Shown piece after piece: positions 34,923-43,452 of a stretch of DNA of 43,452 nucleotides. Each line of letters starts with the position of its first letter. Within the stretch, counting starts at the first letter, position 1. This DNA comes from Bacteroidales bacterium (GTDB lineage Bacteria > Bacteroidota > Bacteroidia > Bacteroidales > UBA932), in contig JAFYTP010000027.1 of assembly GCA_017558775.1 (NCBI GenBank), forward strand, positions 1 to 43,452, written 5' to 3'. A program made the translations under genes and the position numbers. A model generated the notes under the pieces. It made no database searches. It was not told the origin of the DNA and was given only the letters and a program-made list of their open reading frames with translations.

Positions 34923-35813
34923 TTATCTACTCTTAACGGGCTCCATATGGATCGTGACGATGGACCCGTGCCCGAAGCGTTCCTTGATCTTATCCTCGAT
35001 GGCGCTCACGATGTCGTGCGCCTCATTCAGGGACATTCCTCCGTCCAGGCGGACGTGCGCCTCGATGGCGATCCTGTTGCCGATTCTCCGCGTGCGGAGG
35101 TTGTGCGGCTCGCTCACCTGCGGGAAGCTGCGGATGATTTCCTCTATCTCCCGCTCGGTTTCTGCCGATAAGGAACTGTCCGTCAATTCCCCGGTACTCA
35201 CCTTCAGCAGGTCCCAGGCGACCTTGACCAGCATGCCGCCCACGACGATGGACGCCAGCGGATCCAGCACCGCCCACCGCTGCCCCAGCAGGATGGCACC
35301 GCCGATGCCGATGGCCGCCCCGATCGACGAAAGCGCGTCGCTGCGATGATGCCACGCATTGGCAATAACCGCCGGAGACTCGAGGGCCTTGCCCTTGGCA
35401 ATCGTGATACGGAAGAGGATTTCCTTGACCACTATCGACAGCAGCGCCGCCCACAAGGCCAGCATCCCCGGGGTTTCCAGCGTCTCCCCCTTCAGCCAGC
35501 GGGCGATCTTCAGCGAGCCGGAAACGATAATGCCGATGGCGGCTCCCACCAGCGCCAGCGCCACGAACAGCGTCGCCAGCGTCTCGAACTTCCCGTGCCC
35601 GTAATCATGAGAATCATCCTGCGGCTTCGCGCCGATGCGCACGAAAACCAGCACAATCAAGTCCGTCAGGAAGTCCGACAGGGAATGGACCGCATCCGCC
35701 ACCATGGCCGAGCTCCCCGCCACGATGCCGGCGACAAACTTGAACGACAGCAGCACCAGATTCCCGATGCTGCCCAACAGCGTTACTTTCGTAAGCTCAT
35801 TTTCGCGTGTCAT
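34923..35813 (-). CDS. Cation diffusion facilitator metal exporter
   Basis: A 296-residue inner-membrane protein of the CDF family, probably exporting Zn2+, Fe2+ or Mn2+ by proton antiport. Six hydrophobic segments precede a cytoplasmic domain from about residue 215. Metal-site motifs: MVADAVHSLSDF near residue 37 and NAWHHRSDALS near 152; YGHGKFE near 71 is the family loop. HxxxD in TM5 and DxxSD-type pattern in TM2 cannot distinguish the metal. The thioredoxin lipoprotein gene lies just downstream on the same strand. Confidence 0.93.
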   Translation of the reverse strand: MTRENELTKVTLLGSIGNLVLLSFKFVAGIVAGSSAMVADAVHSLSDFLTDLIVLVFVRIGAKPQDDSHDYGHGKFETLATLFVALALVGAAIGIIVSGSLKIARWLKGETLETPGMLALWAALLSIVVKEILFRITIAKGKALESPAVIANAWHHRSDALSSIGAAIGIGGAILLGQRWAVLDPLASIVVGGMLVKVAWDLLKVSTGELTDSSLSAETEREIEEIIRSFPQVSEPHNLRTRRIGNRIAIEAHVRLDGGMSLNEAHDIVSAIEDKIKERFGHGSIVTIHMEPVKSR

Positions 35814-39840: not shown

Positions 39841-39871
39841 TAAAAAAACCGCCGCTATGAAAAGTGGCGGC
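39841..39871 (-). terminator. Terminator of the FISUMP-like gene, copy 1 of a direct repeat
   Basis: Minus strand: GTGGCGG-type arm (39864-39870) pairs with CCGCCGC (39849-39855) around TATGAAAA, then a T7 run opposite 39842-39848. It lies 25 bases after the FISUMP-like gene stop. The same block CCGCCGCTATGAAAAG recurs at 41805-41820. Confidence 0.85.
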
Positions 39872-39896
39872 AGATGAGGGCTTTCTTTTATAGATG

Positions 39897-41447
39897 CTAA
39901 GGACAAACCGCGCGAACGGTCAATCCATCTATTCGATCGGTCCTTTGCATCGGATTGGGGAAACCCGTCAGCTGAAAACCATAAGCACGAACAGGATAAT
40001 CCGGGACAAGATCAGATGTCCAGCAAAATACTGTGAACACAACACGGGTTTGCCAGGTAGCATATCCGGCATAGGGAAACAAGATGTAGTTCCCATTAGG
40101 ACCAGTCACCTTCATAACATGTTCACCTTGACGGAGTATTTCTTCGAAAGTGCACTTATCAAACAGTTCCTTGGCTTCTTCCGTTGTAGGCATTCGCCAG
40201 TTGCCACCCAAAAAGGCATGCGCTGCATCGTCTTCAAGGTCGAGCCGTGTCTTGTTATCCACCTCGCCCCATTTGCTGGCGGTAACGTATTTTGTCAACT
40301 GGCTATAGTCATTGTTGGCTTCATTCACTTCCTTACACAACAGATAGTCTTCCCATCGGTAAAAACCTATCGGCTTGGGAGTCAGTTCTCCCCAGGAAAT
40401 GTAATAGCCGTATTCATCCTCATTACGTGCCCCAATGTTGGCGGATGCCCAGCGAACGGATAATCCAAGATCAACAGCCTTGATGTCACTGGGTTTTGGC
40501 AGCGGTTTGAAATCAATGATAGCCAGACGCAACCGCTTTGCGGCATCGTTGACAGCATTCTGTTTATCCCGGTTTATTCCATCCCGTTTCTCTATATTCT
40601 CTCTTATGTCGACTGCAGACTTGTATGCGTCTTCAAGGCTCTGATAATCATCTGTGCTATAATCCAGAGGGTTTATTGTTGCAAGCAACTGTTTGGCCTG
40701 CCCGATTAAGCAATCAAGGACATTGAATATCAATTCGTTAGCGACTGGAGCCTTTTCGCTTTTTACCGGACGAATGGGCAAACCGAGGTATCTGCATTCC
40801 TTGCCGCCCCATGGGGCACCATGTTCATTAATATCCAGGATAGTTGCTGCTGTGCCGCTGGGACAATCAGAGCACCAATATTTAGCGCCATATTCTTTAT
40901 TGATGATTTCGTCCCAAAGAATATCTCCACAGGCCGGCAGAAATATCGAATTCCCATTGGGACCGATATATTCATAGCCAAAGACGCCATTCTTTACGGC
41001 TCTTCTGTAATCGCATTTGACTAATTCAATCATCTCCTCGAAAGTTGGCGTACGCCAGCCTTCGCCAAGGATAACGGTTGCGGCATCGTCTTCTGGCTGA
41101 AGGAATGCGTAGTCTGGATTATCGAAGCCTAGATAGTAATACTTGGAAAACGTAATCTCGTCATACACATAATGCTCCTCCGTAGTAGGCTCCGCCCACT
41201 TGTATGTTTTCCATTCATAATACGACTTTGGCTTCGTTTCCCCCCACGCAAAGTAATCACCGGAATCCTCCGGACTTTTGGCTCCCACGTTCTTGGTCGC
41301 AAACAATAAACCATCCAAACCAAGATCCACATACTCTTCCGTCTCGACATAAACCGGGACGGTAACAGGCTCCATATTATTCCCCTTCTCACATGACGGA
41401 ATCATACAAATCATCAGAGAGAATAACCAGCAAATATGTTTTTTCAT
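39897..41447 (-). CDS. Lipoprotein with two FISUMP-like domains joined by a FIVAR-like linker
   Basis: A 516-residue lipoprotein: signal MKKHICWLFSLMICMIPSC, first FISUMP-like domain (about 38-230; VDLGLDGLLFATKNVGAKSPED, WGETKPK, GEGWRTPTFEEM), a helical FIVAR-like linker (about 240-305; Y-x-x-L-x-x-A-Y and QNAVNDAAKRLRLAI), then a second FISUMP-like domain (about 315-515; VDLGLSVRWASANIGARNED, WGELTPK, GGNWRMPTTEEA). Each domain ends near an RAVCP or RPVKS strand. Such proteins are surface-exposed in Bacteroidetes with unknown ligand. It ends at the CCGCCGC terminator copy 1. Confidence 0.86.
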   Translation of the reverse strand: MKKHICWLFSLMICMIPSCEKGNNMEPVTVPVYVETEEYVDLGLDGLLFATKNVGAKSPEDSGDYFAWGETKPKSYYEWKTYKWAEPTTEEHYVYDEITFSKYYYLGFDNPDYAFLQPEDDAATVILGEGWRTPTFEEMIELVKCDYRRAVKNGVFGYEYIGPNGNSIFLPACGDILWDEIINKEYGAKYWCSDCPSGTAATILDINEHGAPWGGKECRYLGLPIRPVKSEKAPVANELIFNVLDCLIGQAKQLLATINPLDYSTDDYQSLEDAYKSAVDIRENIEKRDGINRDKQNAVNDAAKRLRLAIIDFKPLPKPSDIKAVDLGLSVRWASANIGARNEDEYGYYISWGELTPKPIGFYRWEDYLLCKEVNEANNDYSQLTKYVTASKWGEVDNKTRLDLEDDAAHAFLGGNWRMPTTEEAKELFDKCTFEEILRQGEHVMKVTGPNGNYILFPYAGYATWQTRVVFTVFCWTSDLVPDYPVRAYGFQLTGFPNPMQRTDRIDGLTVRAVCP

Positions 41448-41469
41448 TTTCGTACTTTTTAAGCGAATG

Positions 41470-41477
41470 CAAAGATA
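41470..41477 (-). promoter_or_regulatory. -7 box of the FISUMP-like gene
   Basis: Minus-strand TATCTTTG (41477-41470), 23 bases upstream of the ATG at 41447. No TTTG is visible at -33. Confidence 0.6.
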
Positions 41478-41796
41478 ATCATAAAAATCCGAAATTTAAT
41501 AGGACTTTGTAGTGATTTGGCGCCCAGAATGTCAGAAAAAAACACTACTCTGACCATTTCACAGATTTGGTTTTTATGTCTTGTCCTGAAAATGACGGGA
41601 AGGGCAAGAGTGAACTTATTTCAGGACGGCACGCACAGGTCTGCGGAAGGACAGCCCGCAACTGGTTATATGTCAATACGTTACAAAACGGCCGTCTGCA
41701 GACCCCAGGAAAAATGAGGGGGTCTGCGGAAGGGCGAAATGCAAGAGGCTCATGATCAGCGACTTACAAATGCACGGTCCGCAGACCCTCACAAAT
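41478..41796. other. Gene-free stretch with repeated GTCTGCGGA blocks
   Basis: No credible gene. GGTCTGCGGAAGG occurs at about 41638 and 41719 as direct repeats, with inverted TCCGCAGACC at about 41776 and the related TCTGCAGACCCC near 41694. GTCCTGAAA (41583-41591) and TTTCAGGAC (41619-41627) form a 9-bp inverted repeat with a 27-base spacer. Repeat density of this kind is typical of mobile-element ends or regulator sites. Confidence 0.6.
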
Positions 41797-41997
41797 AAAA
41801 AAAACCGCCGCTATGAAAAGCGCCGGCAGATATATAGTAGTTTTTTTTAGGTTTGTAAGTGGCTTCGTATCGGCCGCTTACTTATGGTGTAATTCGTAGC
41901 GGGAGTGGGTCACGTACTCACAGACTCACCTCCGCTCTTTTACGACGCTAAAACACCAGCTGAACCATATAGAAAGCTCATAACCGCCGGACTATGA
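41797..41997 (-). ncRNA. Candidate structured small RNA (about 200 nt)
   Basis: Candidate transcript read right to left from a start near 41997 to a T8 run near 41797. In order it contains hairpin CTCATA/TATGAG (41998-41977), a long irregular hairpin with TGGTGT/ACACCA, TCGT/ACGA and an 11-of-13 paired AGCGG arm (41958-41885), a hairpin GTAAG/CTTAC with inner GGC/GCC (41881-41855), and the terminator CCGCCGC...GCGCCGG (41826-41805) followed by T8. Two complete minus-strand promoters lie directly upstream. No protein frame is credible. A role like 6S or Bacteroidales-1 RNA is possible, but it was not compared with any RNA model. Confidence 0.6.
41805..41826 (-). terminator. Terminator of the candidate small RNA, copy 2 of a direct repeat
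   Basis: CCGCCGC (41805-41811) pairs with GCGCCGG (41820-41826) with one C-C mismatch, followed on the minus strand by T8. Shares CCGCCGCTATGAAAAG with the terminator at 39849-39864 but differs on the far arm, so the arms have drifted. Confidence 0.7.
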
Positions 41998-42004
41998 GTG
42001 AGAC

Positions 42005-42036
42005 CAAATATACGCCAATGAACTACTGGTCACAAA
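42005..42036 (-). promoter_or_regulatory. Promoter P1 of the candidate small RNA
   Basis: Minus-strand TTTG (42036-42033), 20 bases, TATATTTG (42012-42005): a full consensus Bacteroidetes promoter. Start expected near 41997, at the foot of the first hairpin. Confidence 0.75.
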
Positions 42037-42062
42037 TAAGTTCAAGAATCTGCGACCGAGAG

Positions 42063-42093
42063 CAAATATAGGATAAAACCGCCGAAATTCCAA
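42063..42093 (-). promoter_or_regulatory. Promoter P2 of the candidate small RNA
   Basis: Minus-strand TTG (42093-42091), 20 bases, TATATTTG (42070-42063). Start expected near 42055, giving a longer form with about 58 extra bases. Same spacing as P1. Confidence 0.72.
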
Positions 42094-42113
42094 CCGCCGA
42101 ATCTTTACCGCCG
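42078..42113. repeat. Three spaced ACCGCCG repeats
   Basis: ACCGCCG at 42078, 42093 and 42107, spaced 15 and 14 bases. Read on the minus strand as CGGCGGT, they cover the -33 element and spacer of P2, on one face of the DNA at about 1.4 turns each. Possible regulator-binding iterons. Confidence 0.6.
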
Positions 42114-42122
42114 TTCCAACAC

Positions 42123-42241
42123 CTTCATCCTCGAGAACAGTCATCGGCTCAAGATAACAGCGCGGATTGTCGGGTAGTCATTCTCCACTCATCTTGGAAT
42201 GGGTTATCGCGCTGAGTCTATGAGCCGGAAGATGCCGTATT
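42123..42241 (+). ncRNA. Plus-strand nested hairpin, candidate second structured RNA
   Basis: CGGCTCA (42145-42151) pairs with TGAGCCG (42221-42227), inside which AGCGCGgAT (42159-42167) pairs with ATCGCGCT (42206-42213) and CATTC (42179-42183) pairs with GAATG (42197-42201). An outer CTTCA/TGAAG pairing (42123-42127, 42241-42245) is possible. The helices run to a plus-strand terminator at 42242. No plus-strand promoter with TAnnTTTG was found upstream, so transcription is not established. Confidence 0.4.
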
Positions 42242-42287
42242 GAAGTCCGCCCCGAGAATGGATTGGGGTGGAGGGGCTTCTTTTTTT
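42242..42287 (+). terminator. Plus-strand terminator
   Basis: GAAGTCC (42242-42248) pairs with GGGCTTC (42274-42280) using one G-T pair, and CCCC (42250-42253) pairs with GGGG (42265-42268). A T7 run follows (42281-42287). It ends the nested plus-strand structure. Confidence 0.7.
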
Positions 42288-42343
42288 CTTTATGATAGAT
42301 TATCACCCAAATAGATGTTCGAGTCATGCCTCTGCTACTACAG

Positions 42344-42373
42344 AGGAAAAATCGAAAGGTTTTTCCTTTTTTT
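42344..42373 (+). terminator. Second plus-strand terminator-like hairpin
   Basis: AGGAAAAA (42344-42351) pairs with TTTTTCCT (42360-42367) around TCGAAAGG, then T6. No gene on the plus strand ends here. It may be a second or bidirectional transcript end. Confidence 0.6.
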
Positions 42374-42596
42374 GTATGGGACCGGAGGAGCCTGGAACTC
42401 ATCGATTTGCAACCACTTGAAGATCAAGCAGTTAAAAGCAGTCTGGTTCCAAGCCTGCCGAAATAGAAGGGGACCAGTGACCAGTCGTTTCGTAACCACC
42501 TGATTATTAGTGACATACAATTGACCTGGTTCCCAGCCTCAGGGGTAAACAGATGTTAGGATGAGTTTACTCCCCACCTTGTGAGTCTAGCGGAGA
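42374..42596. other. Gap after the second hairpin with no recognisable gene
   Basis: No credible gene. Short open frames on both strands have no gene-like features. The stretch has only weak inverted sequences such as GACCAGTGACCAGTC near 42471. It lies between the terminator at 42373 and the stop of the 228-residue protein gene. Confidence 0.5.
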
Positions 42597-43283
42597 TTAA
42601 TCAACCGAATCTGGATCGAGCAGGACTTCCGGCAACATGGATTCGTATGTTTTCAGGAGATCGGCATCCGCAAAACCAACAACGTCAAGAATCCTATAGT
42701 CGTCAATGACAGCACCATTTACAACATTGACCTCATTGACACATATCTTTCCCCAATCACCACGAGGGCCGAAAACCTTAAATACACCATCCTCGGTATT
42801 TAGGATGCTCATCAGCGCATATCCTTCTTGACAGATATCCTTCCAGGTAAGACGAACCGGTATTCTAAGATGAAGAATCGGAGTCCCTTCAACCCCTCCG
42901 GTGATGATCATCTCTTCCTCCCCTATCGACAAAAGACATCGTCGTAGACTACGGTAAGTGTCCTCCTCAAAGATATAGCCGCCAACAAACCCTTTTGCGA
43001 ACAAATGGCTTTGGAACCCGGCAAGAGGATTCCGAATGCTCTCCTCCAGGGTCTGGTTCGTGAAAACTCTGTTATAGACGTCACGCCATTTCACCTCAAA
43101 GGCCTCATCCGAAATCAGGTATTTTTCCAATCGGGCAAAAGACCTGTCCGGGTCATACCATTCTTCCTCACTCATCCCTGCCACATTCCACGGAAGGATA
43201 GGATCATCGCCCACAAAACAACGATACACAAAACCTTGATCGTTATCGTAATCATCAATTATCTGCCGTAATGTAATCTTCAT
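42597..43283 (-). CDS. Protein of unknown function (228 aa)
   Basis: A 228-residue cytoplasmic protein with no signal peptide: MKITLRQIIDDYDNDQGFVY, GMSEEEWYDPDRSFARLEKYL, FKVFGPRGDWGK, and a late VLLDPDSVD. Acidic overall. No family recognised; the composition and orphan position recall immunity proteins of polymorphic toxins, but this is speculative. A short frame (minus strand 43407-43255, GRYYNPFIG) overlaps its start, and a promoter box lies at 43446-43439. The neighbouring upstream gene is outside the window. Confidence 0.68.
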   Translation of the reverse strand: MKITLRQIIDDYDNDQGFVYRCFVGDDPILPWNVAGMSEEEWYDPDRSFARLEKYLISDEAFEVKWRDVYNRVFTNQTLEESIRNPLAGFQSHLFAKGFVGGYIFEEDTYRSLRRCLLSIGEEEMIITGGVEGTPILHLRIPVRLTWKDICQEGYALMSILNTEDGVFKVFGPRGDWGKICVNEVNVVNGAVIDDYRILDVVGFADADLLKTYESMLPEVLLDPDSVD

Positions 43284-43452
43284 AAAATGCTGTATACAGG
43301 TAATTAATACTCGAGTCTATACCAACACCAATAAAAGGATTATAATACCGTCCAAGAGCCGCCTTTGTCCGGGCCTTCTCTTTTAATGAGACCCTCGGCT
43401 GGTGAATTCAATTTAGAAGTGCAACACACTTCAAAAGTCAAAGATATACAAT
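43284..43452 (-). promoter_or_regulatory. Leader and promoter of the 228-residue protein gene
   Basis: Minus-strand TATCTTTG (43446-43439) is a -7 box whose -33 site would lie beyond the window edge; the start would be near 43432 with a leader of about 150 bases. GAAGTG (43432-43427 on the minus strand) pairs with CACTTC around TGTTG. The frame 43407-43255 encodes about 50 residues without a usual start codon and may be a remnant. Confidence 0.45.

Follow-up and report, generated by a model that had tools for sequence, protein, structure and literature searches.

Introduction

Integration into a tRNA gene follows an established scheme, with the restored gene at one end of the inserted element and the displaced 3' end of the gene at the other (PMC4383910). 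The tRNA-gene islands of Islander share with the locus presented here the displaced 3' fragment and, in the related genome G047, a tandem array whose opposite end carries the intact gene. They differ in that Islander filters for an integrase, whereas the G047 islands carry no match to the tyrosine integrase family PF00589, and in that our junction bears a promoter and a pseudoknot-capable module (PMC4383910). Cis-mobilizable elements (CIMEs) are similar in that end repeats are kept, no integration gene is found and elements can stand in tandem at a tRNA gene, as in G047. A shared end module of the present kind does not appear in the portion of the CIME description cited, and the likeness here is one of sequence arrangement only (PMC5704250). 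NBU1 and NBU2, IMEs of the Bacteroidetes, belong to the same phylum and also integrate into the 3' ends of tRNA genes, but their targets are given in the cited section as tRNA-Leu and tRNA-Ser, and tyrosine recombinases are listed for them (PMC5704250).

Here, we analyze a contig stretch of 43,452 nt (hereafter the window) and within it the minus-strand region 41797-42093, for which an unannotated structured small RNA with tandem promoters had been proposed. Judged by comparison with related genomes, the region probably marks the right-hand (attR-like) end of an integrative element, where it joins a tRNA-Met(CAT) gene. This is the most likely reading in view of the tRNA-Met 3' identity, the trailer, the conserved module and the tandem islands of G047.

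Results and Discussion

Layout of the region

No ORF of at least 60 aa overlaps 41797-42093. Read along the minus strand, the order is P1, repeat-rich module, P2, tRNA-like stretch, a 19-nt block, hairpin and terminator. The individual features are as follows:

42115-42343, strand not assigned: adjoining structured block, pieces of which are dispersed through the genus
42079-42112, minus strand: GGCGG repeats, overlapping P1 and continuing upstream of it, with one further repeat at 41990-41984, present in most alignment rows
42063-42093, minus strand: promoter P1, TTG-N20-TATATTTG
42000-42057, minus strand: conserved module, 10 copies aligned (9 distinct), pseudoknot-capable with an alternative 3' hairpin
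Boxes of the module, minus strand: GGTCGC 42057-42052, GAACT 42043-42039, GTGACC 42033-42028, AGTTC 42024-42020, GGTCTC 42005-42000
42005-42036, minus strand: P2, a second promoter-like box inside the module, with a full match in the window only
41915-41966, minus strand: degenerate tRNA-like stretch with GGTTCAGCTGG, GCGTCG and CGGAGG, containing the AGCGG 5' arm
41896-41914, minus strand: displaced tRNA-Met(CAT) 3' end, CGTGACCCACTCCCGCTAC, comprising the 3' part of the T-arm and the 3' strand of the acceptor
41855-41881, minus strand: trailer hairpin, stem GTAAG..CTTAC, loop TACGA
41797-41826, minus strand: rho-independent terminator, CCGGCGC...GCGGCGG followed by T8, part of a tRNA-Met-type trailer

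The contig ends at 43452, 1.1 kb beyond the conserved block. The block at 42115-42343 holds nested inverted repeats (GGCTCA/TGAGCC and CAGCGCG/CGCGCTG), folds well on the minus strand (z-score of -2.6), and parts of it reappear in other members of the genus. Two intergenic repeats, 42246-42290 and 43398-43452, are found five and three times, respectively, on one contig of a relative (G003:C8, L095); the latter carries a promoter-like box, and the window contig terminates inside it. To the left of the region, 41638-41736 contains the repeated GGTCTGCGGAAGG and the inverted pair CGGCCGTCTGCAGACCCC / GGGGTCTGCGGAAGGGCG, while a second copy of the terminator stretch, 94% identical, lies at 39842-39875 after a gene for a 516-aa lipoprotein-like protein. 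An integron-like cassette array, suggested by the recurring tRNA-fragment and other repeats, was considered as well and was dropped when the stretch in question turned out to be the 3' end of a tRNA; a bridge-RNA-type (IS110) or retron RNA was entertained as an idea only.

The tRNA-Met 3' end and its trailer

When 200 genomes of the genus were searched, 197 of the 314 matches started at one sharp query position. This position falls within a tRNA sequence, since tRNA-Met(CAT) ends in CGTGACCCACTCCCGCTAC, and 41896-41914 is identical to this 3' end in the relatives compared. ARAGORN placed a tRNA-Met(CAT) in 16 of the 22 loci scanned, 14 times together with tRNA-Gln(CTG), and found none in the window or in the module loci G191:C53 and G003:C8; no tRNA at all was called within 41797-42093. 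The contiguous identity to tRNA-Met in the window is only 19 nt, shorter than at other junctions, and its own genome holds one exact copy of CGTGACCCACTCCCGCTAC, that of the window, as well as two others with 3 mismatches. A 26-nt pattern of the tRNA end matched 92 of 151 genomes, ten of which had at least two copies, some on separate contigs. Beyond the exact block, tRNA-like positions can be followed back as far as the D-arm, and two elements of the degenerate stretch (CAGCT.. and GCGTCG) recur beside the tRNA 3' fragment at other junctions.

The sequence that follows, 41797-41895, resembles the 3' trailer of tRNA-Met, and the terminator occupies the same place after tRNA-Met in relatives. 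Out of 51 flanks found, 39 were prepared and 29 aligned; the ten omitted comprise eight without the hairpin and two with other changes. The aligned set consists of 19 flanks after a tRNA with an anticodon arm (assigned by a script test) and 10 after fragments, including the window. Across these 29 flanks, 88.2% of the terminator stem cells are paired, with a G-C/A-U exchange at one pair, and hairpin and terminator together show 28 double-changed cells versus 6.8 in shuffles, a covariation that speaks only for hairpin-bearing flanks because those without the hairpin were left out. The trailer hairpin is also present in single-sequence folds. A covariance model of the trailer found matches in 44 of 151 genomes of the genus, a single one in 38 of these.

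Junctions and islands in related genomes

On contig C79 of G047, an intact tRNA-Met (35068-35142) has two displaced 3' fragments downstream in the same orientation, one at 40771 (5.7 kb from the gene) and one at 61855 (26.7 kb). The module precedes each fragment, tandem islands are thereby bounded, and the two intervals hold different genes. The cargo includes SLFN_AlbA_2 (Schlafen-like), NERD, Tubulin_2 and Endonuclease_NS domains and a ZorB-like protein. PF00589 has two matches in this genome, on C7 and C24, and none on C79. Since no integrase was found, the repeats are kept and the arrangement is tandem, G047 fits the description of a CIME, as far as covered by the PF00589 search (tyrosine integrase) and a Pfam scan of 10 of the 22 listed island ORFs. 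The larger, 21-kb island (approximately 41-62 kb; L097/L098), with its tubulin-like, ZorB-like and nuclease genes, is possibly an undescribed defence cluster; it also contains what we take, by eye, to be MotA- and actin/Hsp70-like genes.

Shorter distances were observed in three other genomes. The displaced fragment lies 2.0 kb after tRNA-Met in G092 (C1, L131), 4.5 kb after it in G168 (C14, L132) and 1.65 kb away in G055 (C106, L143), where the left tRNA copy looks near-complete by sequence and was not called by ARAGORN. These intervals hold one to several genes, among them a match to PDC-S22 in G092 and, in G055 and G168, genes that we presume by eye to be HipA/HipBA-like; the name KilA-N used in our annotation is likewise assumed by eye. 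In the fragments of G168 and G055, identity to the tRNA sets in again at the anticodon loop. G191 has its intact tRNA-Met on C14 and the junction on C53. G394 carries the same junction as the window, adjoining six window genes in the same order, with different DNA between these genes and the junction. G003 has one copy that is cut off within the fragment and one located upstream of a tRNA-Met whose sequence differs.

No match to the module was obtained at the junctions in G232, G055, G092, G168 and G119, and the module is thus not needed for tRNA-Met junctions in general. In G232 the junction is present, and P1 and the module are missing between the GGCGG repeats.

The module at the putative element end

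The wider stretch 41905-42300 matched 27 of 400 genus genomes, its own included, mostly as patchwork pieces. For the core module (approximately 41915-42118), nine copies were counted in 7 of the 400 genomes. The raw tally was 9/400, from which G198 and G274, each with two mismatches, were discounted as chance matches because a backward control also gave two hits. A collection of named genomes contained 9 module stretches on 8 contigs. As seven of these contigs agree in length with contigs already encountered in G191, G003, G047, G394, G307 and G200, only L117 was added. This contig, binned as Fibrobacter, shares 99.7% identity with the G394 contig along 3080 bp and is, on that resemblance, probably a misbinned Bacteroidales contig; it was retained as a row in the module and junction alignments, where it adds no independence (10 copies, 9 distinct). 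Neither viral contigs (exact pattern) nor phages and plasmids (blastn, E 1e-5) matched the module, and searches of an open-access literature collection, by means other than the module sequence, turned up no paper with an evident description of it.

The two stems that could form the pseudoknot are paired in 97.9% of cells, versus at most 52.6% when the pairing is slid. All changes in these stems are one-sided, with no two-sided change in the 10 copies (9 distinct). For the alternative 3' hairpin, 88.9% of cells remain paired, again with no two-sided changes across the aligned copies. With RNAalifold, the covariation term of the module came close to zero, and the single two-sided change belongs to a different, weak helix. 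Upstream of the module, the DNA differs between genomes.

This lack of RNA-type covariation in the module stems, together with the repeats and inverted repeats flanking the junction, would suit an explanation in which the conserved end is DNA architecture only, i.e., a set of binding repeats (GGTCGC/GCGACC, GGCGG) for a recombinase or accessory protein without any functional RNA. Such a role, which is compatible with an integration junction, is quite possible, if somewhat short of an even chance: the P1 box and its spacing are kept in 8 of 10 copies, and the five junction genomes named above show no match to the module.

Promoters, folding and the small-RNA proposal

The consensus of Bacteroidetes promoters is TAnnTTTG. 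On the minus strand, P1 is composed of TTG (42093-42091), 20 nt and TATATTTG (42070-42063), and P2 of TTTG (42036-42033), 20 nt and TATATTTG (42012-42005), so both TTG-N20-TATATTTG boxes of the original prediction are in place with the spacing it gave. In the 43-kb window as a whole, the pattern TTG-N20-TAnnTTTG has four minus-strand and two plus-strand occurrences. When the 1150-bp intergenic region was simulated 2000 times with a first-order Markov model, 1.7% of the copies contained at least one promoter match and none at least two, and hence the boxes and spacings are unlikely to arise from composition alone. P1 (TTG-N19..21-TAnnTTTG) is complete in 8 of the 10 aligned module copies (7 of the 9 distinct ones). 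P2, complete in the window alone among the 10 copies, was rejected as a conserved promoter, and of the proposed tandem pair only P1 is retained.

The hairpins and terminator described for this gene-free interval were recovered, too. A G+C-rich hairpin followed by eight T stands at 41826-41797, a terminator that was not among the calls of an automated terminator scan. Folding gave a z-score of -2.09 for 203 nt (7 of 200 shuffles equally good) and of -2.59 for 263 nt (3 of 200), and the stability is moderately above that of shuffles. Rfam yielded no match at the gathering threshold in the region and none up to E 5 across 41450-42600; no 6S, Bacteroidales-1, tmRNA, RNase P or SRP model therefore matches. 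The AGCGG arm, which had been expected to persist among homologues, forms 9 of 9 pairs in five copies that are nearly identical and for this reason say little; in four diverged copies only 2-4 of the 9 pairs remain, and this arm consequently fails the expectation set for it beforehand.

A discrete transcription unit is plausible, with P1 kept and a covarying trailer hairpin and terminator behind it. The 3' part of the RNA as described is a tRNA-Met remnant with a tRNA-Met-type trailer, at what looks like an integration junction. A stand-alone regulatory small RNA gene, whose likeness to a tRNA would reflect descent from a tRNA gene, could account for the complete P1 in 8 of 10 copies, the terminator downstream, the folding z-scores of -2.1 and -2.6 and the 97.9% of pseudoknot pairs kept. 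We nevertheless regard it as unlikely, in light of the sequence beyond the module, which consists of a tRNA-Met 3' end with trailer, the loss of the AGCGG arm in 4 of 9 copies, the absence of an Rfam match, module stems that show no two-sided covariation, and the G232 junction that lacks P1 and module.

A decayed tandem duplicate (pseudogene) of tRNA-Met, arisen without a mobile element, would agree with tRNA-like positions from D-arm to 3' end and with no integrase being seen nearby, but is highly improbable, as it leaves P1 and the module unexplained, the DNA upstream of the module differs between genomes, and kilobases with genes separate tRNA-Met and fragment in G047, G092, G168 and G055.

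The probable integration junction

For the attR-like junction, sequence comparison established what fragment and trailer are, that the module recurs at other such junctions, and that the tandem islands of G047 lie behind an intact tRNA-Met. Counted against it were the identity of only 19 nt, the G003 copies, the G232 junction without P1 and module, and the lack of two-sided changes in the module. The window's assembly, which is 87.7% complete, yielded no intact tRNA-Met with this 3' end within the allowed mismatches. Because the contig ends at 43452, the left end, the cargo and any integrase of the window copy lie out of sight. The left-hand genes of the window were absent beside tRNA-Met in nine loci from nine genomes (approximately 4-19 kb downstream each), except for two paralogue-level matches; as the first window gene shared with G394 is 12 kb from the junction, the shorter of these loci could not show them. 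With the contig stopping and these genes not found near tRNA-Met, the trailer at 41797-41895 could belong to the native site or instead mark where another element starts on the left.

Along the minus strand, the element end would thus come first (the 42343-42115 block, GGCGG repeats, P1, module and tRNA-like stretch), followed by the displaced tRNA-Met 3' end and then by a tRNA-Met-type trailer hairpin and terminator. Site-specific recombination would have joined them, with a crossover at or near the anticodon loop, as suggested by the G168 and G055 fragments that resume tRNA identity there. The absence of a PF00589 match from the G047 islands would place the recombinase in trans or imply its loss, as in cis-mobilizable-like elements. 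With less certainty, transcription from P1 may leave the element end, run through the tRNA remnant and finish at the terminator, yielding a predicted chimeric RNA of approximately 260 nt with the pseudoknot-capable module at its 5' side and the tRNA 3' end and terminator at its 3' side. Its role, at a guess, would most likely be local to the element, in control of the element end or cargo. A bolder extension, which we consider a long shot, is that integration itself completes this chimeric RNA gene, the element supplying promoter and pseudoknot module and the host tRNA-Met the 3' end and terminator, and that the putative RNA signals or governs the integration status of an integrase-less cassette family, with defence-like or toxin-antitoxin-like genes, sharing tRNA-Met as a docking site.

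Conclusion

The apparent small RNA is probably an insertion scar in a tRNA gene of a gut bacterium, where a broken tRNA end and its terminator were joined to the end of an element. A displaced tRNA end with its own terminator can thus mimic a new structured RNA gene. What looked like an orphan RNA instead flags tRNA-Met as an integration site within a large Bacteroidales genus, at which small islands carry defence-like genes, some of them without a tyrosine integrase.
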